Shown here: positions 4,833 through 44,591 of the stretch, piece after piece
Numbering within the stretch: position 1 is the stretch's first letter
Layout of the letters: each line of letters starts with the position of its first letter
Assembly: GCA_014859965.1 (NCBI GenBank)
Contig: JACZKQ010000097.1
Coordinates: forward strand, 1 to 45,180
Direction of reading: 5' to 3'
DNA: 45,180 bases
DNA from: Phycisphaerae bacterium
GTDB taxonomy: Bacteria > Planctomycetota > Phycisphaerae > Sedimentisphaerales > Anaerohalosphaeraceae
Program-made: the position numbers and the translations under genes
Notes under the pieces: generated by a model
The model's database searches: none
The model's input: only the letters and a program-made list of their open reading frames with translations
What the model was told of the DNA's origin: nothing

Positions 4833-4869
4833 CAGTTATGCACGTGCAGCCTTGTTCTCACCAGATCCA

Positions 4870-4887
4870 AACAGGTTGTCACCTGTT
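4870..4887 (-). terminator. Hairpin across the stop codon of the LTD/CotH gene
   Basis: AACAGGT, a 4-nt loop, and ACCTGTT make a 7-bp perfect stem that overlaps the TGA stop of the minus-strand giant gene. There is no clear T run, so termination is only possible, not certain. Confidence 0.4.
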
Positions 4888-11757: not shown

Positions 11758-11788
11758 GGATGCTCCTTTGGCTTTCAATCCTCTGTAC

Positions 11789-11817
11789 ACTATACCAGTT
11801 TTGGCGTCCTATATCAA
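11789..11817 (-). promoter_or_regulatory. Sigma70-type promoter for the LTD/CotH gene
   Basis: On the minus strand TTGATA, a 17-nt spacer, then TATAGT; the -10 box is about 32 nt upstream of the ATG at 11757. The 385-nt gap 11758-12142 holds this promoter and the opposite one at 11892; I see no gene in it. Confidence 0.6.
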
Positions 11818-26102: not shown

Positions 26103-26270
26103 TCTACTCTTGCTCTTTTCTAAGCGGCCTGCATTAAGCCAGACCTCATGCTTGCGACGGGCCCGCGATCTGCCGCGTGATGAATCCGCTTGACTTGCCG
26201 CCGACCTCTGCCATAAACTATATTGTTGTGTATGTGGGGTAATTGCTGGCTTGTCGGAAAGGGGCAGGAG

Positions 26271-27626
26271 ATGGGCAAGAAGGATTCAGGACTGACGCGG
26301 CGAGGATTTATAGCTGCGGCGGGATCGGTCGCGGCGGTCGGTTCGCAAATGACCGGAGCCTACGGAGATATCACCAGGAGGGCAGGTAAGCTGGCGGTGC
26401 TGGGGGGCGACCCGGTGAGAAAGAACAAACACTGGCCTCAATGGCCCTTCTGGGACGACAAGGTCGTGGAGTCCGTCACAAAGACGACGCAAAGCCGGGT
26501 TTGGTGCCGGATTCAGTCGCCTTCGGGAACGGTTCCCACGTTCGAGAAGAAGTACGCCGAGATGACGGGGGCGGGGTACTGTGTGGCGACAGGGTCCGGC
26601 ACGCAGGCGCTGCATACCTGCGTGGAGGCGCTGGGGATCGGGCCGGGGGACGAAGTAATCACGTCACCGTATACAGATCCGGGAACGATTGCGGCGATTC
26701 TGTCGGCGCGGGCGCTGCCTGTGATGGCGGACCTGGATCGGGCATCATATCAGCTCGACCCGGCGGAGGTGGAGCGGAGAATCAATGAGAACACGCGCGC
26801 GATCATGCCCGTGCACATGATGGGGCAGCCGTGCGACATGGACCGGATCATGGCGATCGCCAGGAAGCATAATCTGCGGGTGATCGAGGATGCATGCCAG
26901 GCGCACCTGGCGAGACATCGCGGCAAGGTGTTGGGGACCATCGGCGACGTCGGCTGCTTCAGTTTTCAATCGAGCAAGGTGATCGCCTGCGGCGAGGGCG
27001 GCGCGGTGATTGGAAATGACGAGAAGCTGATGGACATGTGCTATACGGTGCACAACCACGGCACATCGCGGCGCGGCCGGACCGAGGTAATCGGGCCAAA
27101 GTACCGCATGAACGAGTTCGAAGCGGCCGTGCTCTTAGGGCAATGGGACGGGATCGAAGAGCGCCATGCAAAGCGAAACGAAAACGCGGCGCACCTGACA
27201 GCGGGGCTCAAGGACCTGCCCGGCATCATCCCGCAAAAGCTGTATCCGGGTACGGAGTGCGGCTCGTTTTACCTTTACACGATGACCTACAAGAAGGAGC
27301 ATTTCAACGGGGCGGACCGGGCGACTTTTATCAAGGCGGTGGCCGCCGAAGGCGTCAGTCTCAGCCCGTACATCCCGCGGGGCCTGCATCGCGAGCCCTG
27401 GATCGAAAACGTGCTGAACACGAACGTTTACAAGAAGATGTACACTGAGGCGCGGCTGCGGCAATACCGTGATGAGCTTGCGTGTCCCAATTGCGACGCG
27501 GTTTGTGATGAAATGCTGATGCTGTGGGCGTCGGGGCCGCTGTTGGGCACAAAGGAGGACATGGACGACGTTGTCGATGCGATCGTTAAGGTCTACGAAA
27601 ACAGAGATCAGTTGAGCAAGGCATAA
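26271..27626 (+). CDS. DegT/DnrJ/EryC1 aminotransferase-like protein with Tat signal
   Basis: A 451-residue PLP-dependent protein of the sugar aminotransferase family. Family marks are GSGTQALHTCVEALGIGPGDEVI, the aspartate segment VIEDACQAHLA and the PLP lysine in SFQSSKVIACGEGG. What is odd is the N terminus: LTRRGFIAAAGSVAAVGS, a typical Tat signal, so the folded, PLP-loaded enzyme would be exported. The start ATG 26271 follows AAAGGGGCAGGAG. DegT proteins usually act in the cytoplasm on nucleotide sugars, so an exported form suggests a different substrate or a structural role. It converges with the ceramidase-like gene 11 nt away, and a second DegT protein without a signal lies at 29012. 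Confidence 0.88.
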   Translation: MGKKDSGLTRRGFIAAAGSVAAVGSQMTGAYGDITRRAGKLAVLGGDPVRKNKHWPQWPFWDDKVVESVTKTTQSRVWCRIQSPSGTVPTFEKKYAEMTGAGYCVATGSGTQALHTCVEALGIGPGDEVITSPYTDPGTIAAILSARALPVMADLDRASYQLDPAEVERRINENTRAIMPVHMMGQPCDMDRIMAIARKHNLRVIEDACQAHLARHRGKVLGTIGDVGCFSFQSSKVIACGEGGAVIGNDEKLMDMCYTVHNHGTSRRGRTEVIGPKYRMNEFEAAVLLGQWDGIEERHAKRNENAAHLTAGLKDLPGIIPQKLYPGTECGSFYLYTMTYKKEHFNGADRATFIKAVAAEGVSLSPYIPRGLHREPWIENVLNTNVYKKMYTEARLRQYRDELACPNCDAVCDEMLMLWASGPLLGTKEDMDDVVDAIVKVYENRDQLSKA

Positions 27627-27637
27627 AAAAGCGGCGG

Positions 27638-28999
27638 TCAGCGGGACTTCATACGGGCCAGGAGGTCGAGCGCCTCGGCGATGAGGATTTCCGCGGAGCC
27701 TTTGGCAAGCAGTGTGCCGGAGCCCGGTTCGTAGCCGCCCTGATCGTATGCGGCCGCGGGGCAGACGTAACCGACGGCGTCGTTGGCGAGGCTGACCAAG
27801 ACGAGTTTGTCGAGCCCCGCCTTGCTCTTGATCTCCAGGCCGATCTCGACGAGGATCTCTCCCGGCAAACCCACGAGGTAAATGTCGCCGATGCGAAGGA
27901 CCTGGATTTCCGTTCTAATACAGCCGGCCGTTTCGAGCGTGACGGTCTCCTTCAAGGGCAGTTCTATTTGCTTTGTCAGGGCGGCCAAGGGTGCGTTTCC
28001 GGTGGTTTGGACGAATTGGAGGCTCTTGAGGGCTTCGGCCCCGATTGCCTTGCCGATTTTTTCGTGGGCAGGCAGGCCCCGCTGGTAGGGCACGAGATCG
28101 CCGGCCGGGGCGAGGGTGAACAGGCAGGTTCCTCCTTCGATTTGTTCGACCAGGGCGGCGGCGTCTCCGGGATAGTCGGCGGATATTGCAGTTGCCGCGG
28201 AGGGGTAGACGCAGACGGGGTGGCAACCGAAGTTGATGATCGTACCCATGACAGCGCCCGCTGTGTCTTCCACCCGGAGCACGCAGAGGTCCGGGTCGAC
28301 CGGGCCGAATTGCAGGCCGGATTCCTGCTCAAGCCGCGTGAAGGATGTACATGTATGGCCTTCGGGGTCGGTGCGGGTAACTCTGGTGGCGGCGACTTCG
28401 GGGGTTACGCTCAGAGTCATTTTCGCCTTGCCGTCCGGGCCAATGGGCCGACGGTTGAAAACTACCTCCGGTAGCTTGCCCCGGCCGAAACCTATGCCGG
28501 CCGGGCGCATGTCGGCTCGTGCGGCACACACACAGTCGGCAAGTTTATCAACGAGTGCGTGCAGGTATGCCTGATCGATCTTCGAAGCGTCCAGGCGGTT
28601 TTCGGCGGGAATCTTGGAACGGGTGAAGATTTCCGGGCCGGAATGGGTGTGTGTGGCGCAGATGAGGACGTTTTGTTCGGGGATGCCGCATCGTTCTTTG
28701 ACGAGGGTTCGGACGGGCGCGGCGAGTTCTTCAAGCGGGGCATAAAGCAGGTCCGTCGAGAGGACGGCGAGGGTCGTGCGGCCGTCGGTCAGGACCATGG
28801 CCCGGGCGTAGAGCGGGTCCAGGACCGTTTCGCTGGGTTTGCCCCATGAGCCGATGAGCGGGATGCCAACCGGGCAGGTGATCTCCGTGCGGGCAAACCC
28901 GGCCCTAATCGCGCCGCCATCATTCACCTCTGCCGCAGATGCGGCGGGCAGGAAGACGCAGGCAAGAAGCGCCAGGCAGCAGATGATAAGCGTTCGCAT
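27638..28999 (-). CDS. Exported neutral/alkaline ceramidase-like protein
   Basis: A 453-residue secreted protein with a signal peptide (LIICCLALLACVFLPAASA). The body begins AGFARTEITCPVGIPLIGSWGKP and contains VLICATHTHSGPE, the zinc-ligand motif of the neutral ceramidase N-terminal fold, and later NFGCHPVCV. Planctomycetes have many such proteins; true ceramide hydrolysis is unproven for them and other amide or ester substrates are possible. It starts 13 nt after the DegT gene ends upstream, so the two minus-strand genes form an operon. The TGA of that DegT gene is in frame with this ATG but is an ordinary stop: the next codons lead straight into a signal peptide. Confidence 0.85.
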   Translation of the reverse strand: MRTLIICCLALLACVFLPAASAAEVNDGGAIRAGFARTEITCPVGIPLIGSWGKPSETVLDPLYARAMVLTDGRTTLAVLSTDLLYAPLEELAAPVRTLVKERCGIPEQNVLICATHTHSGPEIFTRSKIPAENRLDASKIDQAYLHALVDKLADCVCAARADMRPAGIGFGRGKLPEVVFNRRPIGPDGKAKMTLSVTPEVAATRVTRTDPEGHTCTSFTRLEQESGLQFGPVDPDLCVLRVEDTAGAVMGTIINFGCHPVCVYPSAATAISADYPGDAAALVEQIEGGTCLFTLAPAGDLVPYQRGLPAHEKIGKAIGAEALKSLQFVQTTGNAPLAALTKQIELPLKETVTLETAGCIRTEIQVLRIGDIYLVGLPGEILVEIGLEIKSKAGLDKLVLVSLANDAVGYVCPAAAYDQGGYEPGSGTLLAKGSAEILIAEALDLLARMKSR

Positions 29000-29011
29000 G
29001 GGTGATGCCTT

Positions 29012-30379
29012 TCATTTGGTGCCGCCGGGGGCGGTCTTCTGCTCGCTGAAAAAGCTGGTGTAGCCGCCGATGCGGTCGTCGCCGCCGGGGTCGTCGACCA
29101 GCAGGGCCTTGTGGTTGCGGATGACCTTCTTGTAAGCTTCGGCATGCTGGGTGATGATTTCGGGCCGATAGTGCTTGAACCAGGGCGCCTCGAACGTCAG
29201 CCGGTTGGCGGCCTCGGCGACAGGCAGCTTTTCAGGGAAGCGGTAGGGGGAGGCGGACGGGTGGAGGTTGGCCAGGCAGGTCGGCCGACCGTGGCCGTAG
29301 ACGTCCATCGTCGTGAAGAGGGGATGCAGGTGCAGCGGCTTGTTGCAGCCGGGCCGGCATACCGCGCCCTCGGCGGCGACGGCCTGGCTGAAGCGCATAA
29401 GCGACAGGCCGCCCAATTCCTCGGGCACATAGCGGAAGAGCGGGTAATACCAGCCGCCCTTTGTCGTGTTGCCGCCGGGCACGGGCCGGATGGGGCGGAT
29501 GCCGGGCAGATCATCGAGCAGGTCGCAGAAGTAGTTCATGGCCTTGTCGATCTCGGCCATTTGTGCGGGATATGCGTCGAGTTGGACAAGCCCCACGGCA
29601 GAACTGAGCTGGTGCATGCGATTTTTGAAGCCGCCGCAGGGCAGCCCGCGGAACGGCTTGAGGTCGTCGAGGGTGATTTCGTTATGGCGGATGTAGTGGC
29701 CGAAGAGCAGGGCGCGTTCGTGGATGCGCTGATCGTCGGTGAAGAAAATGCCGCCTTCGCCGACGGCCAGTGATTTGCCGGACATCAGCGAGAACGCCCC
29801 GACCGTGCCGATCGTGCCGACCTGGCGGCCTTTGTAGAGGGCGCCGTGCGCGTGTGAGCAGTCTTCCAGCACCATAAGATTGTGGCGGCCGGCGACGTCC
29901 ATGATGGCGTCCATGTCGGCTGGCATGGCGGCGTAGTGCACCGCGACGATGGCTTTGGTGCGCGCGGTGATGCGTCGTTCGACGCCGCGCGGATCGATGC
30001 ACAGGGTCTCGGGGTCCGAGTCGGCGAAGACGGGAACGCCGCCGAGCGTGTAGACCTGAGCAATCGACGCCCAGTACGTAAGCGAGGGGGCGATGACCTC
30101 GTCGCCTGCGCCGATGCCCATGCCGTACATGGCTTCGAGAATCGAGGCCGTGCCGTTGGGGGCGGCCAGCGCGTACTTGCGGCCGAGTGCGGCGGCGTAT
30201 TTGCGTTCAAATTCCTTGGTGACCTCCAGGCCCGACATCTGCCCCGCGCGGAGGACCTTGAGGACGGCCGCTTCGTGAGCCTCGGTGATAATGGGCCATT
30301 TGAAGATGTCGCCGGGATCGGCGGTGACGGTCTTACCCCCTCCGAAAAGGGCCAGTTGCTCGTGATCCGGTGTGTTCAT
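29012..30379 (-). CDS. DegT/DnrJ/EryC1 family aminotransferase
   Basis: A 455-residue cytoplasmic PLP enzyme of the sugar aminotransferase family. Visible marks: NGTASILEAMYGMGIGAGDEVI, the acidic segment VLEDCSHAHGA, and the PLP lysine in SLMSGKSLAVGEGG. No export signal is seen, in contrast to the relative at 26271. The start at ATG 30379 has AAAGG 5 nt upstream; longer frames run into the tRNA-Sec gene. It precedes the ceramidase-like gene by 13 nt and follows tRNA-Sec by 80 nt on the same strand, so it may be on the tail of the selD transcript. The substrate, possibly a keto sugar or keto cyclitol, cannot be read. Confidence 0.9.
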   Translation of the reverse strand: MNTPDHEQLALFGGGKTVTADPGDIFKWPIITEAHEAAVLKVLRAGQMSGLEVTKEFERKYAAALGRKYALAAPNGTASILEAMYGMGIGAGDEVIAPSLTYWASIAQVYTLGGVPVFADSDPETLCIDPRGVERRITARTKAIVAVHYAAMPADMDAIMDVAGRHNLMVLEDCSHAHGALYKGRQVGTIGTVGAFSLMSGKSLAVGEGGIFFTDDQRIHERALLFGHYIRHNEITLDDLKPFRGLPCGGFKNRMHQLSSAVGLVQLDAYPAQMAEIDKAMNYFCDLLDDLPGIRPIRPVPGGNTTKGGWYYPLFRYVPEELGGLSLMRFSQAVAAEGAVCRPGCNKPLHLHPLFTTMDVYGHGRPTCLANLHPSASPYRFPEKLPVAEAANRLTFEAPWFKHYRPEIITQHAEAYKKVIRNHKALLVDDPGGDDRIGGYTSFFSEQKTAPGGTK

Positions 30380-30459
30380 GTCAGCCTTTCGTTGAAAAGC
30401 AAGGTCATGGGCACTGTCCCGGCTCGACGCCCGAACAGCAGCAGGATCGCCGGGCAAAA

Positions 30460-30554
30460 TGGCGGAGGCGAATGGGAATCGAACCCACCCGGGACCTTAT
30501 CGGCCCCACAACGGTTTTGAAGACCGCGGGCAACACCAGTCACCAGTCACCTCC
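30460..30554 (-). tRNA. selC: tRNA-Sec (anticodon UCA)
   Basis: All hallmarks of bacterial tRNA-Sec are visible. The acceptor stem has 8 bp (GGAGGTGA with TCGCCTCC), the T stem 5 bp (GTGGG with CCCAT around TTCGATT), the D stem 6 bp (GGTGAC with GTTGCC) with a 4-nt loop, and there is a long variable arm (GGGGCC with GGTCCC). The anticodon loop is CTTCAAA, anticodon TCA at 30518-30520. The discriminator is G and CCA is encoded. It lies 24 nt after the selD stop on the same strand, so it is probably cut from the selD transcript. Confidence 0.97.
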
Positions 30555-30578: not shown

Positions 30579-32177
30579 TCACGGCTGCGGCTTATGCTGC
30601 TTGTAGAACATCATACACGGTGCGCCGCCGAATGCAATGCCCATCCACGCGGCCTCGTCGATTTCCTGCTCGGTAAAGCCTTTTTCGCGGGCCTTTGCGA
30701 TATGGCTGGCGACGCACGGCTCGCACCGCTGGGCGACGGACAGCGCAATGGAAATTGCCTGTTTGGTGTAGGCGTCCAGGCCGCCGGGGCGATTCACCTG
30801 CCCCATGAAGTCCATGAACTTCTGTTGGGCGCCCGATTCGTCCGCCGTGCCGGCAGCAGGCGTCGACGCAGCAGCAAGGGTCTCAGCACAGCATGCGGTT
30901 TCCGCCGGCGCGGCGGCCGGGGGCATAACAGCGGGCTCCTTCGGCGCCTTCTCCCTCGGTCGCGGGTCGGGCAGTGTTCGCTGGCCCGTCGTTCGCACAT
31001 GCACCTTGCCCGCGCCCCTGGCCAGGACTCTGCCGATCACCACAGCGGCCAATACGCCGGCTTCGTGCAGGGCCTTGAGCAGCGTGTCGGCCTTGCCCGG
31101 CTCGATAGCAATCAGCAGCCCGCCGGAGGTCTGGGCGTCAAAGCACATGTCCAGCATCTCGGGCGTGAGGCCTTCGCCTCCGATGACGCGGCCCCCGCAG
31201 GACTCCTTGTTGCGTTCGATCGCACCGGGCAATATCCCATCGGCGACGTATTGCAGCAGATGCGGAAAGACCGGCAAATCGTCCCAGACGACCTCCACGT
31301 CCACGCCGCTGGACAAAGCCATCTCCGACAGGTGGCCCATAAGGCTAAAGCCGGTCACGTCGGTGCAGGCGTGCGCGCCGAATTCGACCATCAGCCGCGA
31401 GGCCTCCTTGTTGAGCGTGGTCATGGATACGGCCGACGCCTCAACGCTTTCAGCGAACGCCCGGCCGATCTGCGAGGCGAACGCGATGATGCCTGTGCCC
31501 AGCGGCTTGGTAAGGATCAGCACGTCGTCGGGGCGGGCGGTGGCGTTGGCGGTAACCTGATTAATGGGCATAACGCCGGTGACCGCAAAGCCCGCCTTGA
31601 TCTCAGGGTCATTGATGCTGTGGCCGCCGATGATGGCGACGCCCGCCTCTTTCATCTTGTCGATGCCGCCGCGAAGGATTTCAGTGAGCGCGTTGTCGGG
31701 CACTTTGCGCACGGGAAAACCGATGACCGAAAGCGCCGTCAGTGGAATGCCGCCCATCGCGTAGATGTCGCTGACGGAGTTAGCGGCGGCGACCTGCCCA
31801 AAGGTGTACGGATCGTCGACCGACGGCGTGAATACATCGACCGTCTGCACGAGCGCCTTGCCGTCGCCGATATCGAAAATACCCGCGTCGTCGCCTGCCG
31901 GCACGCCGACCAGCACGCGCGGATCGTCGACCACGGGCAGCCCCTTGAGAACCTCCTTAAGGAATGCCTGATCGATCTTGGACGCGCAGCCGGCCTTCTC
32001 GATGAGGTGCGTGAGCTTGACCTCACCGGTCGGCGATTCGACCCGCTCACCCGCACAGAGGCAGATATCCTTCTCGCGGAACAGGTCGCAAGGGCAAGGC
32101 TTTCTGGCATCGCAGATGCAGTGACCCAGCTTGATCGAACGTTTCATGATCCGTTTGCGTTTTTCGAGATTACGCAT
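30579..32177 (-). CDS. selD: Selenophosphate synthetase with Cys-rich N terminus and C-terminal AhpD-like domain
   Basis: SelD makes selenophosphate from selenide and ATP. The core (about residues 53-400) is the usual PurM-like kinase, with the catalytic Cys64 and Lys67 in AGCASK (E. coli has GCGCK; the second Cys is Ser here). Two additions are unusual. Residues 18-45 hold three CxC pairs (Cys 20/22, 28/30, 39/41: CIC, CPC, CLC), which could bind an iron-sulfur cluster or a selenium species. Residues about 430-532 are a carboxymuconolactone decarboxylase/AhpD-like domain with CEPC at 485-488 and His492, the CxxCxxxH active-site pattern, joined by an Ala/Pro-rich linker. The 532-residue protein is far longer than the usual 345. 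It ends an operon with HgdB-like genes and precedes tRNA-Sec. Confidence 0.95.
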   Translation of the reverse strand: MRNLEKRKRIMKRSIKLGHCICDARKPCPCDLFREKDICLCAGERVESPTGEVKLTHLIEKAGCASKIDQAFLKEVLKGLPVVDDPRVLVGVPAGDDAGIFDIGDGKALVQTVDVFTPSVDDPYTFGQVAAANSVSDIYAMGGIPLTALSVIGFPVRKVPDNALTEILRGGIDKMKEAGVAIIGGHSINDPEIKAGFAVTGVMPINQVTANATARPDDVLILTKPLGTGIIAFASQIGRAFAESVEASAVSMTTLNKEASRLMVEFGAHACTDVTGFSLMGHLSEMALSSGVDVEVVWDDLPVFPHLLQYVADGILPGAIERNKESCGGRVIGGEGLTPEMLDMCFDAQTSGGLLIAIEPGKADTLLKALHEAGVLAAVVIGRVLARGAGKVHVRTTGQRTLPDPRPREKAPKEPAVMPPAAAPAETACCAETLAAASTPAAGTADESGAQQKFMDFMGQVNRPGGLDAYTKQAISIALSVAQRCEPCVASHIAKAREKGFTEQEIDEAAWMGIAFGGAPCMMFYKQHKPQP

Positions 32178-32207: not shown

Positions 32208-32981
32208 TCAGTCTTTCCTCATTGCCATGATGGCGGCGCCGAGCGCGCCTGTGATTTGCGGGTGCGGGCAGATCGCCACCTCGCTGCCGAGGGCTTCGGC
32301 AAGGGCTCTGTCCATGCCGCCGACGAGTGCGACGCCGCCGGTGAAGATCACCGGGCCGTGGACGACCGCCCCGGCCATTGCGGCGGTTCGCCCCGCGATG
32401 GCGTGCATGACACCCGCGACGATGTCGGCGGGTTCAGCGCCCGAGGCGAGCAGCCCCACGATCTCCGTCTCCGCGAAGACGACGCACATGCTGCTGATCT
32501 GGGCGGGCCGGCGGCTTTGGCTTGCCAGTTCACCAAGGTCGCACAGTCGCACGGCGAGCCGGTCGGCGACGATTTCGAGAAATCGGCCGGTGCCCGCGGC
32601 GCAGCGGTCGTTCATGGCGAAGTCGCGGACCCTGCCACCGGTGTCGAGGTGCAGCAGTTTGCTGTCCTGGCCGCCAATGTCGATTACCGTGCGGGCCGTG
32701 TCGACGAGCCTGCGGACTCCGGCGGCATGGCAGGTGATCTCGGTGACGGTGGTGCCGGCGACAGAGACGATGGCTCGTCCGTACCCCGTAGCGACGGCGC
32801 CCGCGACGTCCGACTCCCCGATGCCATTCTCTTCGAGCAATTGCCTGTAAAGCCGCCCGGCGAGTTTCGCCTGTTCGACGCCCTGGTCGGCAATCGCCGA
32901 GGCGACGATGCGGCCCGATGGGCCGTCGAGCAGCACGATCTTGACGGCTCTTGAGCCCGCGTCGATGCCTGCGTAAATCAT
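32208..32981 (-). CDS. BadF/BadG/HgdC-type ATPase activator
   Basis: A 257-residue ATPase of the family that activates 2-hydroxyacyl-CoA dehydratases, benzoyl-CoA reductases and double-cubane proteins by ATP-driven electron injection. It starts with the ASKHA phosphate loop GIDAGSRAVK, followed by TVIDIGGQDSK and the cluster region MNDRCAAGTGRFLE and SSMCVVFAETE; the two Cys bind a 4Fe-4S cluster bridging a dimer in the family. FTGGVA completes the nucleotide site. The ATG overlaps the stop of the upstream gene (ATGA), so translation is coupled. selD begins 30 nt later. It is the expected partner of the three upstream dehydratase-like proteins. Confidence 0.93.
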   Translation of the reverse strand: MIYAGIDAGSRAVKIVLLDGPSGRIVASAIADQGVEQAKLAGRLYRQLLEENGIGESDVAGAVATGYGRAIVSVAGTTVTEITCHAAGVRRLVDTARTVIDIGGQDSKLLHLDTGGRVRDFAMNDRCAAGTGRFLEIVADRLAVRLCDLGELASQSRRPAQISSMCVVFAETEIVGLLASGAEPADIVAGVMHAIAGRTAAMAGAVVHGPVIFTGGVALVGGMDRALAEALGSEVAICPHPQITGALGAAIMAMRKD

Positions 32982-34363
32982 GGTTGCCTCCGTTGATGGA
33001 TGGTTTCGACGAGCGCCTCGATGCGGGTTGCGATGGCGGGGCGGATCGCATCGGTCAGCGGCGGAATTTCGATTTCGAGCACGGCAAGCCCGCATGTCTT
33101 GCGGAGGTGCTCGGCGATGATTCGGCCCTCGACGGCGCAGTGGCTTGCGCCCGGTATGCGGGAGATGATCACAGCCTCAGCCCCGAAGGTGCGGGCGTCG
33201 GCGGCGATGCGGGCGGCGCGGTCGACCGCCGAGCCGGCCATCGGATCGGCCAGTGCCGCCAGGGCGAGTGCTTCGAGCGGTTCGACATCTTCACGCAGGA
33301 GGTCCAGTGCGTGGGTAAACATGTATTCCGTGCCGCAGATCCTTGCCCCGTATTGTTCAAGCAGGTTCATCACCCGAAGGTCGGCGACAGGGTTGACCCA
33401 GAAGACCTTTACGGCGTCCGGGCTGCCGAAGCCGACTCCCGCGGCGATGCGAGCCTGCACCTCGGCGCCGAGTTCCTCAAGCACCGCCGCGGTTTCTTCG
33501 CGGTCGCTGCAGTAATGGATCGCCAGCATCTCGGCAATGAGCATCTCCAGCGCGGGCATGGGACAGCGCGACGCCGTGAAGACCGTGCGGCGGAGTTCCG
33601 AAAGCAGGCGGCGAATGTCGTTGGCGCGGGCGATGGCCGACGACAGCGCGGCGTCGTCGAGTTGGACGCCGGAGACCTCTTCGAGGGCCCTTTGCACGAG
33701 CACCAGTTGCGCCCGCACAAAGTCGACCTGCGATTGGGCAGCGACAAACGTTCCGCCCGGAAGCGTTACACATTGCTCGCCTTGTTCGGGACCCCGGCGG
33801 TGCGGGATTTCCCACCACACAATTGTGTGCCCGAGTCCCTCCAGCCGCTGGGCGATGGCGCTGAAGTCGTCGCATGTTGCCCCGACGCTGCACGTCAGCA
33901 GGTCCGGGATCGGAAAGTGATTGCCGGTGACGAACGCGCCCAGCATGGCTCGCACGGGGCAGAAAGATTCGTCGACACCGAGCGAGTCGGCGACGGCCAG
34001 CAGCCGGTCGCTGTTTTCCATCACGCAGGGAATCCACCATGCGCCGTCGGGGTAAAAGGCGACCACGTTATCCAGCGCATTGGCCATCACCGCCGTCGTG
34101 CCAAGGTCCTTCATCACGCCGACGATCTTCTTCCCCTCCGACCTCGCTTGCGTCAGGCGTTCTTCTTCAGTCAGCAGGAAATTCCACAGACGCAGCGCGG
34201 CGGCCGAATCATCGAACATCAGTTTTCGCAGGCGATAATCCCCATCCTCAGCGTGGCGGCTGAGTTTGCCCCCATAGAAGGGCTCCGCCAGTCCTGCCGA
34301 TTTCAACGCCTCATAGCGCCCGTCCCACTCGTCGAGCGTGATCTGTCGCAGCTTTTGCGTCAT
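32978..34363 (-). CDS. 2-hydroxyacyl-CoA dehydratase-like subunit (HgdB superfamily)
   Basis: A 461-residue protein related to the 2-hydroxyacyl-CoA dehydratase/benzoyl-CoA reductase subunits. Segments such as FCPVRAMLGAFVTGNHFPIPDLLTCSVGATCDD and a later WWEIPHR place Cys residues where the family binds its cluster; the second half repeats the fold (VFWVNPVADLRVMNLLEQYGARICGTEYMF). It starts at ATG 34363, overlapping the upstream stop (ATGA); an upstream in-frame ATG would overlap the previous gene by about 190 nt. It lies between a second HgdB-like gene and the ATPase, so it is probably one of two unlike subunits of an ATP-driven reductase. No CoA substrate can be inferred, and no CoA-transferase gene is nearby. 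Confidence 0.85.
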   Translation of the reverse strand: MTQKLRQITLDEWDGRYEALKSAGLAEPFYGGKLSRHAEDGDYRLRKLMFDDSAAALRLWNFLLTEEERLTQARSEGKKIVGVMKDLGTTAVMANALDNVVAFYPDGAWWIPCVMENSDRLLAVADSLGVDESFCPVRAMLGAFVTGNHFPIPDLLTCSVGATCDDFSAIAQRLEGLGHTIVWWEIPHRRGPEQGEQCVTLPGGTFVAAQSQVDFVRAQLVLVQRALEEVSGVQLDDAALSSAIARANDIRRLLSELRRTVFTASRCPMPALEMLIAEMLAIHYCSDREETAAVLEELGAEVQARIAAGVGFGSPDAVKVFWVNPVADLRVMNLLEQYGARICGTEYMFTHALDLLREDVEPLEALALAALADPMAGSAVDRAARIAADARTFGAEAVIISRIPGASHCAVEGRIIAEHLRKTCGLAVLEIEIPPLTDAIRPAIATRIEALVETIHQRRQP

Positions 34364-35268
34364 TGCAGCGTCTCCAGAAAAGCCTGTACGCGGCCGGCCG
34401 TCCGCTCGCCGGCGGCCGGGCTGTCGTCGCTGACATCCAGATCGAGCAGCGGCACGTGCAGGGCATCCCTGAGCCGATGAACTTCCGCATGCCAGAGGTC
34501 GCACCACACAAGACGCCGACAGATGACGCCCTGCACACGGCGCTCGGTGCATTCACGGGTGAGCCAGTCAAAGAGACCGGTGTTGGGTCGCTTCCAGACG
34601 GCGGGAATCGAATCGAAGTAAGCCCGCGCGAGTTCACCGACTGGATCCTGCCGCAGCAGCGCGGGATCGAACCGGTCCGGCAGCGTGCGCTCGCCGGTCT
34701 CGGTTGCGTCGAATACGATTCGCCCGCCGTTCCGCACGACCAGATCAAACAGCCCCGACTCTCCTGCGAGCAGAGGCCCGCCGACAAGTGCGAGCCGAAC
34801 GCCGCCGCTGTCGGCAACCCGACGGTCGGGCATCGCTTGCCTGCGCCCGTCAAAGTCAAGCATCGTCGCCGCCAGGGCATCGGCCGAAGGCACGCACCCC
34901 CCAAGGGTGTACAGCCACCGTCCCATGCGGCCAAGCTCGTCGATGTAAAGTTGAGTGCAAGCAGCGTTCCGCCACGTCTTGGGCAGATTCAACAGGAAGG
35001 TCTCCACGCATGTCCCATCGACCACGAGGTCGCGCACCCTGCGCATCTGGTCGCACGCGGTGGTGAAGATCGCCCCGCAGGATGTGCTGTCGCCGAGCAC
35101 GTGATTGGCAAATGCCCGGGCAAAGGGACAGAGGCCTTCGATTGGAGCGACTGCGGCATGCATCCCTGTCGACTGCGGCATTATGCGAGCGGGCCGCAAC
35201 CCGTGCGCGGCGATCCACTCGGCCGGGACGAACGGACATGTGTAGAGGATCTGCGACACGCCGGTCAA
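34360..35268 (-). CDS. 2-hydroxyacyl-CoA dehydratase-like subunit (HgdB superfamily)
   Basis: A 302-residue member of the same superfamily, shorter than the typical 380-430 residues. Its cluster-site cysteines are in LYTCPFVPAEWI, EGLCPFARAF, FTTACDQMRRVRD and RRLVWCDLWHAE, in family order. The start is a TTG overlapping the stop of the upstream gene (TTGA), and its own stop overlaps the next ATG (ATGA). Such tight coupling suggests subunits made in equal amounts. With the 461-residue neighbour it may form a heterodimer carrying iron-sulfur clusters, activated by the ATPase at 32208. Confidence 0.82.
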   Translation of the reverse strand: MTGVSQILYTCPFVPAEWIAAHGLRPARIMPQSTGMHAAVAPIEGLCPFARAFANHVLGDSTSCGAIFTTACDQMRRVRDLVVDGTCVETFLLNLPKTWRNAACTQLYIDELGRMGRWLYTLGGCVPSADALAATMLDFDGRRQAMPDRRVADSGGVRLALVGGPLLAGESGLFDLVVRNGGRIVFDATETGERTLPDRFDPALLRQDPVGELARAYFDSIPAVWKRPNTGLFDWLTRECTERRVQGVICRRLVWCDLWHAEVHRLRDALHVPLLDLDVSDDSPAAGERTAGRVQAFLETLQ

Positions 35269-36428
35269 TCCTTCCTTGCCATTTCGAATAACGCCTCGAC
35301 GCGGACCGCGATGCGGGCCGAGTCCGACGGCGAGTAGTCGGTTTCGATTTTCAGGTAGGGTAGCCCGAGTCTTTCAGCGGCAAGCCGCCGGACAAAATAC
35401 GACTCGACGTCGTAGGTCAAGCAGGCCTGCCAGACAAGGTCGATAATGCAGTCGGCTCGATATGTGCCGGCGAGTTGTTCGAGCATCTCCATGCGCCGGT
35501 CGTTTCGCGTCATCACCGAGCACGGCAGACGAAAATACTTCTCCGCGATCGCCTCCATCGGGTCGGCGGCGTTTTCGTCGACGTCTTCGAGAATGGGCTT
35601 CAGGCCGGTGCAGTTTTCCATGCAGACGACCAGACCTCCGTTTGCCTCGATAAGATCCACAATGCGTTCGGCCCCGTGCACCACGGGCACGCCGGTGAGA
35701 AGCACGCGCACCGGCCGCTTGCTCGCCCCTACCAACGGCGCCGAGCGATAAAGCTGCAGAGCCTCATCATACTGCTCGAAGTCGGCTTCAATACCTGATA
35801 TGCTGCTCTTGAAGTCGAGCAGTTGTCGTCCCGTAATCGGCGGTGCGTCACCGGCCATAAGCTGAGCTAATTGCCGCCTGAGGCCGCGTTCGCGATTCAT
35901 CGTACGGATCGCCCCGCGGAGTCTCTCATCGGTGATCCGCATATCGAATCGCCCCTCGAGAACGCGTTTGAACTTGTCCAGTTCGCTTCGCCAGTGCTGC
36001 ATGGCGTCGGCGTCGTCGGGTTTCTGCGCCAGTTCGAGCACGTGCATCGGCCGAGTCTCGGACAGAAGTTCATACATCTTCTTTTTGCCGTCGCACGTAG
36101 TCTCGGCGACGATAAGATCCGCCATTTCGAGAAAAGGGTTCGTCTTCTGAACGTGGTAGCCGTACGTCGATTTGATCAGCGGGCAAAGGTTCGCCGGCAG
36201 GTGCTGCTCGGCGGCCGCAATCGTCTGCTGCGAGCCCCCGCACAGACAGACCGGCACGGCGTCGGCCGCCAGAATCAATTCGCGCGGCGTAAACTCGCAC
36301 ATGATGCCCACGATGCCCCTGCCCTGTGCCTTGGCCCTCGTGGCGTATTCGCAGCATCGGCCGATCATACCGCCGAACCACGCACGCGGCCCGTCGCCTG
36401 GTTTGCTATTGGGACAGCATTGTGTCAT
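35265..36428 (-). CDS. Double-cubane cluster protein-like (YjiM/DCCP type)
   Basis: A 387-residue protein that resembles the E. coli YjiM/double-cubane cluster protein branch of the HgdB superfamily, in length and in motif order: GIMCEFTPRELILAADAVPVCLCGGSQ, NLCPLIKSTYGY, ADLIVAETTCDGKKKMYE and IDLVWQACLTYDVES near the end. Known members hold an unusual iron-sulfur double cubane and, when fed electrons by their ATPase, reduce difficult small molecules. The ATPase at 32208 would be the partner. Its stop overlaps the TTG start of the next gene. The presence of this protein in an operon ending in selD and tRNA-Sec is striking; the physiological substrate is unknown. Confidence 0.85.
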   Translation of the reverse strand: MTQCCPNSKPGDGPRAWFGGMIGRCCEYATRAKAQGRGIVGIMCEFTPRELILAADAVPVCLCGGSQQTIAAAEQHLPANLCPLIKSTYGYHVQKTNPFLEMADLIVAETTCDGKKKMYELLSETRPMHVLELAQKPDDADAMQHWRSELDKFKRVLEGRFDMRITDERLRGAIRTMNRERGLRRQLAQLMAGDAPPITGRQLLDFKSSISGIEADFEQYDEALQLYRSAPLVGASKRPVRVLLTGVPVVHGAERIVDLIEANGGLVVCMENCTGLKPILEDVDENAADPMEAIAEKYFRLPCSVMTRNDRRMEMLEQLAGTYRADCIIDLVWQACLTYDVESYFVRRLAAERLGLPYLKIETDYSPSDSARIAVRVEALFEMARKD

Positions 36429-36494
36429 GTCGGACCTTTCTTCAAGTCGAGCGGGGTTTACCCCGCCGCGGTGGCAAATCTGCTCAAATGCAGA

Positions 36495-37301
36495 TCAATC
36501 CTCTTTCCGGGCGACGAAAAGCCCCTGTGCGATACGGCCGTCGTGGGCGAGTTGCTGCATGAACTGCATCTCGCCGGCGATCGCCGTCAGCATGCCTTCG
36601 TCGAAGCCGATGATCTTTAGCACGTCATAGCCCAACTGCTTGCCGACCATGTCGAGGTACAAGTCGACGTAGGGCGCAAATCGGCCGGTGTCCTCGGCGG
36701 TGACGATGCGGCAGTTGTTTGCTTCCAGCAATCCACAGTAGCCGTCGATGTCCTCCATGTTGGCAAACTTCATGAACTTCATGAATCGTCCGGCCTGCTC
36801 GTCGGAAAGCCCCGCCGGCCCCTCTACCCAGTCGGTGAAGGCGATGACGCCGCCGGGTCGCACGATCCGCGCCGCCTCGGCGATGAGCCGCTCTTTGTCC
36901 TCAACATAGCACCACGCGTCTTCGCCCCAGACAAAGTCCACGCCATCGCTTTCGAGACCGCTGTCGCAAACATCGGCGAGCACGAAGTCAATGCGGTCGG
37001 CAAGGCCTTCCGCGCGGCAGCGCCGCTGCCCTTCTTTCACGACGGCTTCGGTAGCGTCCACGCCGACCATCCGTGCCGCGCCCTGCATGCGCACCAGGAA
37101 CCGCATGCCCGCGCCGGTGCAGCAGCACAGGTCGACGCCGTGGGCGCCGGCGGCAATACCCGCCTTTTCGCACAGGTCCAGCGACGAAAGGAACCCGCCG
37201 ATATGAATCTGTTCGCCCATGATCCGTTCCCACAACCGGCCTTCTGGGCCGCTGTAGACCTCCTGCACGTCCGTCAGAGCGATGCCTTCGATTCTCTTCA
37301 T
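36495..37301 (-). CDS. SAM-dependent methyltransferase
   Basis: A 268-residue class I methyltransferase. The SAM-binding glycine motif is GVDLCCCTGAGM, followed by VGVDATEAVV (acidic ribose contact), DFVLADVCD and FVWGEDAWCYVED; the C-terminal half resembles sarcosine/dimethylglycine or ubiquinone-type methyltransferases. It is the first gene of the run of minus-strand genes leading to selD (66 nt to the double-cubane protein) and lies after the terminator at 37328. It could methylate a small molecule in this pathway. A selenium-methylating role is possible only as speculation. The triple Cys in the SAM loop is unusual. Confidence 0.87.
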   Translation of the reverse strand: MKRIEGIALTDVQEVYSGPEGRLWERIMGEQIHIGGFLSSLDLCEKAGIAAGAHGVDLCCCTGAGMRFLVRMQGAARMVGVDATEAVVKEGQRRCRAEGLADRIDFVLADVCDSGLESDGVDFVWGEDAWCYVEDKERLIAEAARIVRPGGVIAFTDWVEGPAGLSDEQAGRFMKFMKFANMEDIDGYCGLLEANNCRIVTAEDTGRFAPYVDLYLDMVGKQLGYDVLKIIGFDEGMLTAIAGEMQFMQQLAHDGRIAQGLFVARKED

Positions 37302-40469: not shown

Positions 40470-41876
40470 ATGAATGATTCGAGTCAGGAGCTTTTGCGGC
40501 GGATACCGTCAGTGGATGCCTTGTTAAAGCAGCCCCAGGTCGCCGGCCTTATCGACCGCTTCGGTCGCCGCATCGTGGCCGATTCGTTTCGCCGCGCCGC
40601 CGACAACGTCCGCCAGGCAATACTCTCCGGCCAAACACAGGGCTTCGACGACGGAGTCGATCTCCGCATCATGGCAGACGCCGCCGCCCGGGTCAAGGCG
40701 CTCACACACCGCCACTATCGCCGCGTCATCAACGCCGCCGGCATCGTCCTTCACACCGGCCTCGGCAGGGCGGTCCTCTGCCGCCAGGCCGTCGAGCAGC
40801 TCGCCGAAGAGATGGGCCACTACTCGCTCCTCCAGGTCGACACCGAAGAAGGCAAACGCTCCACCCGCGACAGCCACATCGAGCAACTGCTGCAAATCCT
40901 CACCGGCGCAGAAGCCGCCACAGTCGTCAACAACAACGCCGCCGCGACCTCCCTCGTGCTCAACACTGTCGCCGCCGGCCGCGAGGTCATCGTCTCGCGA
41001 GGCCAGCTCGTCGAGATCGGCGGCGCATTCCGCCTCCCCGACGTCATGGCCTTCAGCGGCGCAAAGATGATCGAGGTCGGCACGACCAACAAGACCCACG
41101 TCCGCGATTATGAAAACGCCATCACCGAAAACACCGCGGCCCTGTTGCGGGTCCATCCGAGCAACTACAAAATCCAGGGGTTCACCTCCGAGGTATCGCT
41201 CGATGACATGGTCGCCATAGCGCGCCGCCACAATCTCGTCATGATCGACGACGTCGGCGCCGGCTCTCTGGTCGATTTCTCAAAGTACGGTTTCGAGCCC
41301 GAGCCCACCCTCGCCCAGTCCGTCGCCGCCGGAAGCGACATCATCACCTCCAGCGCCGACAAGCTCATCGGCGCCTCCCAGGGCGGCATCATCCTCGGCC
41401 GCACCGCGTGGATCGACGCCGTCCGAAAAAACCAGTTCGCCCGCATCGTCCGCGTAGGCAAGCTCACACTGGCGGTCCTCGAAGCCACCCTGAAACTCTT
41501 CCTCGACGAAGCCGCCGCCCTGCGCGAGGTCCCCACCTGCCAAATGCTCCTGCGGCCCGCCGACGACATCGCCCGCCAGGCCAAACGCATCGCCGCCCAA
41601 CTCCAAAAGGCCCAACTCCCCGCCGAGATCGCGACCGCCCCTGGCTTCTCCCAAACCGGCAGCGGCTCTCTGCCCACCCAAAACATGCCGACGACCCTGG
41701 TCACGGTCACGCCCGCCAAGATGACCGCTGAAACCCTCGCCGCCCGCCTCCGCAGCCACAAAACCCCCATCTTCTCCCGAATCCAAAAAGCCCAGATCCT
41801 CCTCGACCCTAGAACCCTCCGAGAAGACGACGAAAAAATCCTCACCCAGGCCCTCATCGAACTCCTGAAGACATAA
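40470..41876 (+). CDS. selA: L-seryl-tRNA(Sec) selenium transferase
   Basis: SelA is a PLP enzyme that converts Ser-tRNA-Sec to Sec-tRNA-Sec with selenophosphate. The 468-residue length is typical. The N-terminal tRNA-binding part (RRIPSVDALLKQP) is present, the family segment NAAGIVLHTGLGRA follows, then NNNAAATSLVLNTVAAGREVIVSRGQLVEIGG, and the PLP lysine is K298 in SSADKLIGASQGG. It follows the DUF2283-like gene by 23 nt. selB is downstream but separated by an AbrB-Doc module, an unusual insertion because selA and selB are normally adjacent. Codon use is very C-rich on this strand. Confidence 0.98.
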   Translation: MNDSSQELLRRIPSVDALLKQPQVAGLIDRFGRRIVADSFRRAADNVRQAILSGQTQGFDDGVDLRIMADAAARVKALTHRHYRRVINAAGIVLHTGLGRAVLCRQAVEQLAEEMGHYSLLQVDTEEGKRSTRDSHIEQLLQILTGAEAATVVNNNAAATSLVLNTVAAGREVIVSRGQLVEIGGAFRLPDVMAFSGAKMIEVGTTNKTHVRDYENAITENTAALLRVHPSNYKIQGFTSEVSLDDMVAIARRHNLVMIDDVGAGSLVDFSKYGFEPEPTLAQSVAAGSDIITSSADKLIGASQGGIILGRTAWIDAVRKNQFARIVRVGKLTLAVLEATLKLFLDEAAALREVPTCQMLLRPADDIARQAKRIAAQLQKAQLPAEIATAPGFSQTGSGSLPTQNMPTTLVTVTPAKMTAETLAARLRSHKTPIFSRIQKAQILLDPRTLREDDEKILTQALIELLKT

Positions 41877-42671: not shown

Positions 42672-44591
42672 ATGGCGACATCAAAAATCAACATTACGTT
42701 AGGCACGGCCGGGCACATTGACCACGGCAAAACGGCCCTGATCAAGCTGCTCACCGGCTGCGATACGGACTTCCTCAAGGAGGAGAAAGAGCGGGGCATG
42801 TCGATCGAGCTGGGCTTTGCCCCCTGCACCATCGCCGACCTCGAAGTCGGCATCGTCGACGTCCCCGGCCACGAGCACTTCATCAAAACCATGGTCGCCG
42901 GCGCCACCGGCATCGACGGCGTCATCTTCGTCATCGCCGCCGACGACGGCGTCATGCCGCAGACCCGCGAGCACCTCGACATCCTCACGCTGCTCGGCGT
43001 CGCCCACGGCATCGTCGCCCTCACGAAGGTCGACGCCGTTTCGCCCGAGCGGGTCGCCGCGGTCACCGACGAGGTCCGCCGCTTCCTGACCGGCACGTTC
43101 CTCGCCGACGCCCCCATCCTGCCGATGTCCTCCATCACCGGCCAGGGCTTCGACGGCTTCTACGAAGGCCTCCGAGACCTCGTCGCCCAAATCCGCCCGC
43201 GCACCGTCGAAGGCGTGTTCCGCCTCCCGATCGAAAAGACCTTCTCCGTAAAAGGCTACGGCTCCGTAGTCACCGGCATCCCCGTCTCCGGCTGTGCCGC
43301 CGTCGGCGACGAGGTTGTGCTCCTGCCGCAGGGCCAGAAGGGCCGCATCAAAGCCATCCAGGTCTACAGCAGCCCCGCCGAGCAGGTCCTCTCCGGCCAG
43401 TGTGCCGCCCTCAGCGTCCCGCAGTGGGACTACCGCAGTATCGTCCGCGGCAACGTCGTCACCGTCGGCCGCTACTTCGCCCCGCGCCAGTGGTACCTCT
43501 GCAAGCTGCAAATGCTGCCGCAGGACAAGCTCTTCCTCAAGACCGGCACGCAGGTCAAGTTCCACACCGGCGCAAGCGAAGTCGTCGCCAAGGTCTACCT
43601 CATGGAGGGCAACACAATCACCGCCGGCCGCGAGCAGGTCGTCCAGATCCACACCGAGCGGCCCGTGGTCGCCGCCCCCGGCGACCGCTTCATCATCCGC
43701 ACGCCCAGCCCCGCCAACACCATCGGCGGCGGCCTCATCGTCGAAGCCATGGACCAGCGCATCCGCCGCAGTCGGCCGGACCTCCTCGACGAGGCACGCG
43801 CGCGGGCCGAAGCCGTCTCCGGCGAACTCAGCTTTCTCGAATACTGCGTCAAAACCGCAGAAGGCGGCGCCGCAAACCCGCAGCAGCTTTCCCTCCGCGC
43901 AAAAATCCTGCCGCCGCGACTGGACATGCTCCTGACGCAATTGCAGCAGGCCGGCACAATCACCCGCCTCTCCGGCAATCTGTTCGTACACGTCTCGGCC
44001 GCCGAGCAACTCGAAAACAAGCTCACCGACGCCGTGCGCCAGTTTCACAACACCCAGCCCGAGAGCCCCGGCATAGCCCCCGACGCGCTGCTGCACGCCT
44101 CCGGCCTCAATAAGAACGTCTTCGACGGCCTCCTCGAACGCATGCTGGCCGCCGGCACACTGACCCAGCGAAAAGGCTGCATCGCGCTGCCCGAACATCG
44201 CGAGGATTTCGACCCCGCCCAGCGCCGCCTGCTCGCGTCGGTCGAGGACCTGTTCGCAAAGCGCCTCTTCAACCCGCCGTCCATCGACGAAGCCGCCGCC
44301 GCCATCGGCGTGCCCGTCGGGGCGGTCCAGAAGACGGTCCGCATCCTCACCGAGCAGCAGACCCTCGTGCAGATCGACCGCGACAACGTCTTCCACAGCA
44401 AGGCAATCCGCGAGGCCTCAAGACGCCTCACGGAGCACATCCAAAAAGAAGGAAAGCTTGAAAGCGTCGCCTTCAAGTACCTGCTCGACACAACCAGAAA
44501 ATGGGCGATTCCGCTGCTCGACTACATGGACAAGATCGGCGTAACAATGCGCTCCGGAAACACACGCTACCTCAAGAAACCCCTCGCTTAG
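42672..44591 (+). CDS. selB: Selenocysteine-specific elongation factor
   Basis: SelB carries Sec-tRNA-Sec to ribosomes paused at UGA with a SECIS. The 639-residue protein has the G domain at the start (GTAGHIDHGKTALIKLLTG, then DVPGHE and TKVD), two EF-Tu-like barrel domains up to about residue 370, and winged-helix domains from about 380 to the end, the last of which bind the SECIS hairpin (DKIGVTMRSGNTRYLKK is the typical end). GGGAGAT precedes the ATG. The complete SECIS-binding end supports active decoding. It starts 72 nt after doc and is followed by the PGUGSP gene. Confidence 0.98.
   Translation: MATSKINITLGTAGHIDHGKTALIKLLTGCDTDFLKEEKERGMSIELGFAPCTIADLEVGIVDVPGHEHFIKTMVAGATGIDGVIFVIAADDGVMPQTREHLDILTLLGVAHGIVALTKVDAVSPERVAAVTDEVRRFLTGTFLADAPILPMSSITGQGFDGFYEGLRDLVAQIRPRTVEGVFRLPIEKTFSVKGYGSVVTGIPVSGCAAVGDEVVLLPQGQKGRIKAIQVYSSPAEQVLSGQCAALSVPQWDYRSIVRGNVVTVGRYFAPRQWYLCKLQMLPQDKLFLKTGTQVKFHTGASEVVAKVYLMEGNTITAGREQVVQIHTERPVVAAPGDRFIIRTPSPANTIGGGLIVEAMDQRIRRSRPDLLDEARARAEAVSGELSFLEYCVKTAEGGAANPQQLSLRAKILPPRLDMLLTQLQQAGTITRLSGNLFVHVSAAEQLENKLTDAVRQFHNTQPESPGIAPDALLHASGLNKNVFDGLLERMLAAGTLTQRKGCIALPEHREDFDPAQRRLLASVEDLFAKRLFNPPSIDEAAAAIGVPVGAVQKTVRILTEQQTLVQIDRDNVFHSKAIREASRRLTEHIQKEGKLESVAFKYLLDTTRKWAIPLLDYMDKIGVTMRSGNTRYLKKPLA

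Follow-up and report, generated by a model that had tools for sequence, protein, structure and literature searches.

A SelD subfamily with an N-terminal six-cysteine domain and, usually, an AhpD domain, which may carry its own selenium relay

The window, a stretch of 45,180 nt of a Phycisphaerae contig, encodes a predicted selenophosphate synthetase (SelD) that carries an N-terminal domain with six cysteines in front of the kinase core and a Cys-Cys linker and an AhpD domain behind it. This SelD form with the N domain (N-SelD), which usually also contains AhpD, is conserved, being present in many anaerobic bacteria, yet apparently undescribed. We read it as a conserved Cys-type SelD subfamily, which may possess its own thiol/metal relay for reducing selenium or passing it on; a probability of about 0.5 is assigned to this reading. 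The cellular reduction and delivery of selenium to SelD are still unsettled (PMC13188914), and a SelD whose own chain includes conserved thiol modules and probable metal modules makes the question of selenium delivery testable.

The selD fusion gene and its genomic context

The following features were identified in the window and in the SelD protein:

30460..30554, minus strand: tRNA-Sec (ARAGORN; RF01852, 77.2 bits), 24 nt after the selD stop codon
30579..32177, minus strand: selD fusion gene, 532 aa (N domain, SelD, Cys-Cys linker and AhpD)
30594..30839, minus strand: AhpD/CMD domain (aa 447-528), with CEPC 485-488 and His492 at 30702-30725
30840..30992, minus strand: disordered linker (aa 396-446), pLDDT below 50 at 416-445
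30888..30893, minus strand: linker Cys-Cys pair (C429, C430), nearly invariant
30993..32024, minus strand: SelD kinase core (aa 52-395), Cys type (TIGR00476; residues align with E. coli SelD 3u0o)
31977..31988, minus strand: SelD active site C64-A-S-K67 (E. coli C17..K20), from the alignment with E. coli SelD
32043..32168, minus strand: N-terminal 3xCxC domain (aa 4-45), RKRxMxRSIxLGHCxCx(5)CPCx(8)CxCAGER
32208..33095, minus strand: acyl-CoA dehydratase activase-like ATPase (BadF/HgdC; TIGR00241, 241 bits, cut-off 125)
32978..34552, minus strand: HGD-D family protein "HGDa" (PF06050)
34360..35268, minus strand: HGD-D family protein "HGDb" (PF06050)
35265..36428, minus strand: double-cubane-cluster anaerobic reductase, DCCP (NF040772, 418 bits, cut-off 350)
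36495..37301, minus strand: SAM-dependent methyltransferase at the head of the cassette (PF08241)
40470..41876, plus strand: selA (TIGR00474, 547.8 bits, above cut-off)
42672..44591, plus strand: selB, here without the N domain (TIGR00475, 360 bits, above cut-off)

The fusion ORF starts with an ATG that is closely preceded by AGGA, and its relatives have their start at nearly the same position (MI[ND]xExRKR). The original prediction of a SelD with additional thiol parts at its front and back was borne out by matches to TIGR00476 (aa 54-361) and to the CMD model PF02627 (aa 451-520) and by the six-Cys N terminus; the coordinates, strand and length of the ORF and the numbering of C20/C22, C28/C30, C39/C41, C485-E-P-C488 and H492 were all right. 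An assembly or frame error joining two separate genes had been put forward as the observation that would overturn it. Locus L127 could be taken to favour such an error, as its AhpD is encoded by a separate ORF (8184-8408) right after selD, which overlaps the end of selD in another frame and comes with no Cys-Cys linker. However, the architecture with all parts was found in 61 complete proteins, and the fused protein is present in dozens of genomes from independent assemblies, including single-contig genomes such as the 4.25-Mb genome G006, and is under strong purifying selection. An artefact was therefore rejected, and its probability is negligible.

With 351.6 bits, the SelD core lies far above the cut-off of the equivalog model TIGR00476 (125 bits). 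C64, K67, D97, D114, N133, D137 and D273 align with E. coli SelD, and every mappable catalytic residue is kept; the protein is predicted to synthesize selenophosphate from selenide and ATP. The replacement of the second Cys of the SelD motif by Ser had been pointed out as well, which is correct as sequence but unremarkable: CAS is found at the active site in 87 of 90 relatives, and the active sites of other Planctomycetota SelDs are varied (GUGCK, GUACK, GCAAK, GUASK, GUAAK), which led us to reject a special meaning of this position. A CxxC motif has been reported in less than 5% of single-domain SelDs (PMC2398784). By these comparisons, the Ser in GCASK is ordinary and uninformative. The N-SelDs that were read are all of the Cys type.

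The distribution of N-SelD follows that of the selenocysteine machinery. Among 59 related genomes, 12 contain a true tRNA-Sec (at least 67 bits), and these are exactly the 12 with N-SelD, including G019, in which only the AhpD end is visible next to a contig break. In a sample of 294 genomes of the phylum, SelD was detected in 196, most of the listed ones having one in-frame TGA (Sec type), and 11 of the 12 N-SelD genomes of this sample encode a tRNA-Sec. Beside the tRNA-Sec gene of the window, a neutral/alkaline ceramidase-like gene is located between two DegT/DnrJ-type aminotransferase genes (26223-30457). A further ORF of the window (4879-11790, minus strand) encodes 2303 amino acids with repeated lamin tail domains.

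Upstream of selD and on the same strand lies a conserved cassette (32208-37301), which encodes the activase, two diverged HGD-D proteins, DCCP and the methyltransferase. The activase and HGD proteins are found upstream of selD in about half of the 57 loci with at least 5.5 kb of flank, and the methyltransferase was matched in 37 fetched loci, where it mostly adjoins DCCP directly. Two Armatimonadota loci (L094, L121) show the order selD-selB-methyltransferase-double-cubane. HGDa is confined to SelD-positive genomes, both among the relatives (8/8) and in the phylum sample (17/17). DCCP has been provisionally tied to selenium elsewhere (PMC10418091), and activase/HGD genes are linked to Se genes of Slackia in STRING (PMC5322559); the loci described here tie the methyltransferase/double-cubane cassette to selenium. 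Programmed frameshifting of DCCP was considered for L062, L072, L085 and L087, where the gene lies in two frames, and rejected, since masked runs of N explain the split.

The N-terminal six-cysteine domain

The N domain has a size of about 45 residues. All six Cys are invariant in 66 of 66 aligned domains, the spacing CxC-x5-CPC-x8-CxC is the same in all 90 distinct sequences, and R7, M11, R13, S14, A42, G43 and E44 are conserved in addition; the invariance of the Cys and of their spacing greatly exceeds what chance would give. For a single pair, the window protein and its closest relative L049, codon substitutions were compared: pN of the N domain is 0.06 with synonymous change being saturated, and pN amounts to 0.49 in the linker versus 0.06-0.14 in the domains. 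AlphaFold (AF2) predicts a helix followed by Cys loops with a short helix, with a pLDDT of 88-94 in the full-length model and of 84-92 when the domain is modelled alone. No Pfam model matched the N-terminal 50 or so amino acids in the full-length scan, and nine N domains scanned alone against Pfam up to E 10 yielded a single spurious match (E 0.25); sequence searches likewise placed the domain in no known family of Pfam, NCBIfam or the PDB, and such an assignment was dropped. A Sec form of the domain, suggested by a TGA in a partial match in G025, was also discarded, since the 31 amino acids that can be read there, at the end of a contig, represent an intact Cys version.

A contig scan with the N domain alone as query revealed 163 encoding stretches, 80 of which were kept. 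Their records are labelled Planctomycetota, Lentisphaerota, Kiritimatiellota, Verrucomicrobiota, Acidobacteriota, Armatimonadota, Aminicenantes and Fermentibacteria, and N-SelD spans about eight phyla. The domain is joined to SelD everywhere except for an extra copy on the SelB of L124 and for L116, where the contig ends inside the domain; the combination of N domain, SelD and AhpD recurs in several of the 59 related genomes. When the 81 N-SelDs were placed in a maximum-likelihood tree together with 30 ordinary SelDs, they all grouped in a single clade (support 100/99). The simplest reading is a single gain of the N domain followed by its retention, and the domain can serve as a marker for this clade. 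The presence of AhpD changes about eight times on this tree, in which a few of the "absent" entries reflect contig or locus ends. Three genomes (G043, G288, G331) have a second SelD match elsewhere, which contains an in-frame TGA in G043 and G288.

In the Lentisphaerae locus L124, which has the operon order selA-selB-selD, both SelB (4839-6986) and SelD (6986-7897) begin with the six-Cys domain. This SelB matches TIGR00475 with 319.6 bits, and its N domain keeps all six Cys, the sequence having diverged from the SelD copy. Among the fetched loci, 28 gave a SelB match, and in one of these SelB carries the domain; this single case argues for a role in the Sec pathway and not in the SelD reaction alone, and it is as compatible with a module serving the Sec pathway in general as with a reductant specific to SelD.

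The N domain shows a weak resemblance to the catalytic chain of ferredoxin:thioredoxin reductase (FTR). It shares the order CxC..CPC..CxC and the CPC-x8-CxC spacing with the Synechocystis protein (PF02943), and the match in spacing was noted from the motif ahead of any structure search. Foldseek returned only four matches at E up to 10 among 350,542 PDB chains, all of which are FTR catalytic chains, the matches being weak and not significant (E 5-10, TM about 0.2). Using hhalign, the comparison with an FTR alignment gave a P value of 0.0014, above all 200 column-shuffled controls, at a probability of just 4-18%, and VIA-align gave a Z below 2. A bona fide FTR catalytic-chain gene (PF02943; 2282-2566) ends about 20 nt upstream of N-SelD in L105 (Aminicenantes), and certain bacteria have an FTR that is itself a double selenoprotein (NF041072; PMC2398784). 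Unlike FTR with its CPC-x16-CPC-x8-CHC pattern, the N domain has a first gap of x5 and contains neither His nor an aromatic residue in the last CxC, and PF02943 gave no match to N domains up to E 10. The domain is therefore not filed as FTR, and its identity as a true FTR was rejected, as both defining features tested, the PF02943 match and the spacing, fail; it is possible that it works like FTR.

The linker cysteines, the AhpD domain and a possible selenium relay

The match of the C-terminal domain to PF02627 (E 3e-16; 59.6 bits versus a cut-off of 23) includes the CxxC (C485, C488) and the catalytic H492, and the domain also matches TIGR00778 and the PDB AhpD/CMD entries 5dik, 1p8c and 1vke. 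Its closest NCBIfam matches are Se/As-linked AhpD forms; the scores for the selenoprotein families NF041537, NF045649 and NF041047 lie below cut-off. Of 75 complete proteins, 61 combine the CxxC of AhpD with the Cys-Cys pair of the linker, 12 have neither, two have Cys-Cys only and none has CxxC without Cys-Cys, i.e., the pair is present in 61/61 proteins with the CxxC and in 2/14 without it (Fisher 3e-12, relatedness being ignored). In L036 and L058, which are two of the 12 with neither, the AhpD domain is retained, but CxxC and Cys-Cys are both gone. The two motifs are read as one putative functional pair. The Cys of the N domain do not depend on this pair, because they persist where AhpD and Cys-Cys are lost. 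Several lineages lack AhpD or have lost its CxxC, and neither AhpD nor Cys-Cys is present in most Aminicenantes and some Verrucomicrobia/Lentisphaerae N-SelDs, which implies that a shuttle formed by them is not essential to the family. AhpD fragments located 3' of selD in L050 and L083 are degenerate remnants without CxxC. The N-SelD of L037 (G043), which lacks AhpD, has the C-terminus CCSSKESSCCGGD, a Cys-Cys tail.

In the proposed relay, the N domain would bind a metal, with an Fe-S cluster as the likeliest form, and would take low-potential electrons, perhaps from a ferredoxin pool that would also feed the activase and DCCP. The linker Cys-Cys and the AhpD CxxC/His would act as one dithiol shuttle, which takes selenium as perselenide or selenosulfide and releases it in reduced form beside C64/K67, where ATP would be used to form selenophosphate for SelA. 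With such a built-in relay, the protein would itself supply the reducing or delivering function that is provided elsewhere by a donor protein or by an active-site Sec. The relay is favoured by the six invariant Cys with fixed spacing over about eight phyla, the covariation of Cys-Cys and CxxC, the conservation of the catalytic residues, the exact co-occurrence with tRNA-Sec (12 of 59 genomes) and the parallel with published Ndh- and NifS-SelD fusions. Furthermore, N-SelDs are of the Cys type, in contrast to the listed SelDs of the phylum, most of which have one in-frame TGA. The adjoining reductase cassette, the likeness to selenoprotein AhpD domains and, weakly, the FTR-like hints also point in this direction. 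However, the weakness of these hints, the members without AhpD and Cys-Cys, the N domain of the L124 SelB, which the reduction of the SelD substrate does not explain, and the lack of a cassette next to selD in roughly half of the loci whose flanks are long enough count against it. A selenium or redox role of both extra parts had been suggested at the outset; it is the most economical reading of the Cys invariance, the covariation, the tRNA-Sec co-occurrence and the AhpD matches to selenoprotein families, but AhpD turned out to be dispensable and the N domain is found on one SelB, too. In a more far-reaching version, the N domain would be a miniature FTR-type Fe-S/dithiol centre and a dedicated Sec-pathway module, which together with the Cys-Cys/AhpD shuttle would turn SelD into a single chain that reduces selenium with electrons from ferredoxin and also makes selenophosphate; this version is doubtful.

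In the main rival explanation, the same six Cys would stabilize, via a metal, a docking domain that is not a redox centre. Its R..M.RS/AGER face would bind SelA or tRNA-Sec, thereby holding SelD, and once SelB, in one Sec-synthesis assembly, and AhpD would be a separate protective or Se-reducing add-on. The occurrence of the domain on both SelB and SelD in L124 is the main support for this explanation, which also agrees with the conserved non-Cys residues, with the position of tRNA-Sec directly 3' of selD in many loci and with the retention of the N domain even where AhpD is lost. A purely structural site, however, usually needs four Cys and not six invariant ones, and with only one SelB carrier among the 28 loci, we consider docking unlikely. 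AhpD proteins are known CxxC peroxidases, and AhpD and Cys-Cys may act as a peroxidase or in thiol repair, keeping the active-site Cys of SelD reduced during oxidative stress, with no selenium passing through; the match to the PDB AhpD 5dik and the covariation of Cys-Cys and CxxC, which resembles that of a redox pair, fit this role. It is quite improbable given that the adjoining cassette is of the oxygen-sensitive anaerobic reductase type, that carriers with a source named in the record title are mostly from sediment or other anoxic samples and that the closest NCBIfam matches of AhpD are Se/As-linked forms; moreover, the N domain would be left unexplained.

Comparison with known systems

Fusions of SelD to an NADH-dehydrogenase-like protein (Ndh-SelD) or to NifS are known (PMC2398784, PMC4561486), and the published fusions with a redox or Se-donor module carry it at the N terminus and, with one exception, contain SelD-Cys (PMC4561486). 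The N-SelD form with AhpD is absent from the text of PMC2398784 and PMC4561486, and no published description of a SelD with the N domain was found in the searchable literature. The window protein contains no NADH-dehydrogenase-like or NifS domain according to the Pfam and NCBIfam scans. Like Ndh-SelD and NifS-SelD, it has a candidate redox or Se-donor module ahead of a Cys-type SelD; unlike these proteins, which are extended on the N-terminal side only, it carries other modules and carries them at both ends. The whole kinase core, the Cys/Lys active site and the Asp/Asn/Thr ligands are shared with E. coli SelD (3u0o), to which the window protein adds the six-Cys domain, the Cys-Cys linker and AhpD, with CAS-K in place of CGC-K.

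The AhpD domain has the CxxC-x3-H motif in common with the arsenite methyltransferase-AhpD and MduS selenoproteins (NF041537, NF045649), and a methyltransferase of a related type is encoded in the same operon. In contrast to these selenoproteins, it contains Cys instead of Sec, is joined to SelD and not to a methyltransferase, and scores below the cut-offs of both families. The upstream DCCP and activase exceed the cut-offs of their families (NF040772, TIGR00241) and resemble the known DCCP/activase cassette; what differs here is that the cassette also encodes a methyltransferase and two HGD-D proteins, both of them diverged, and is arranged in a row with selD and tRNA-Sec.
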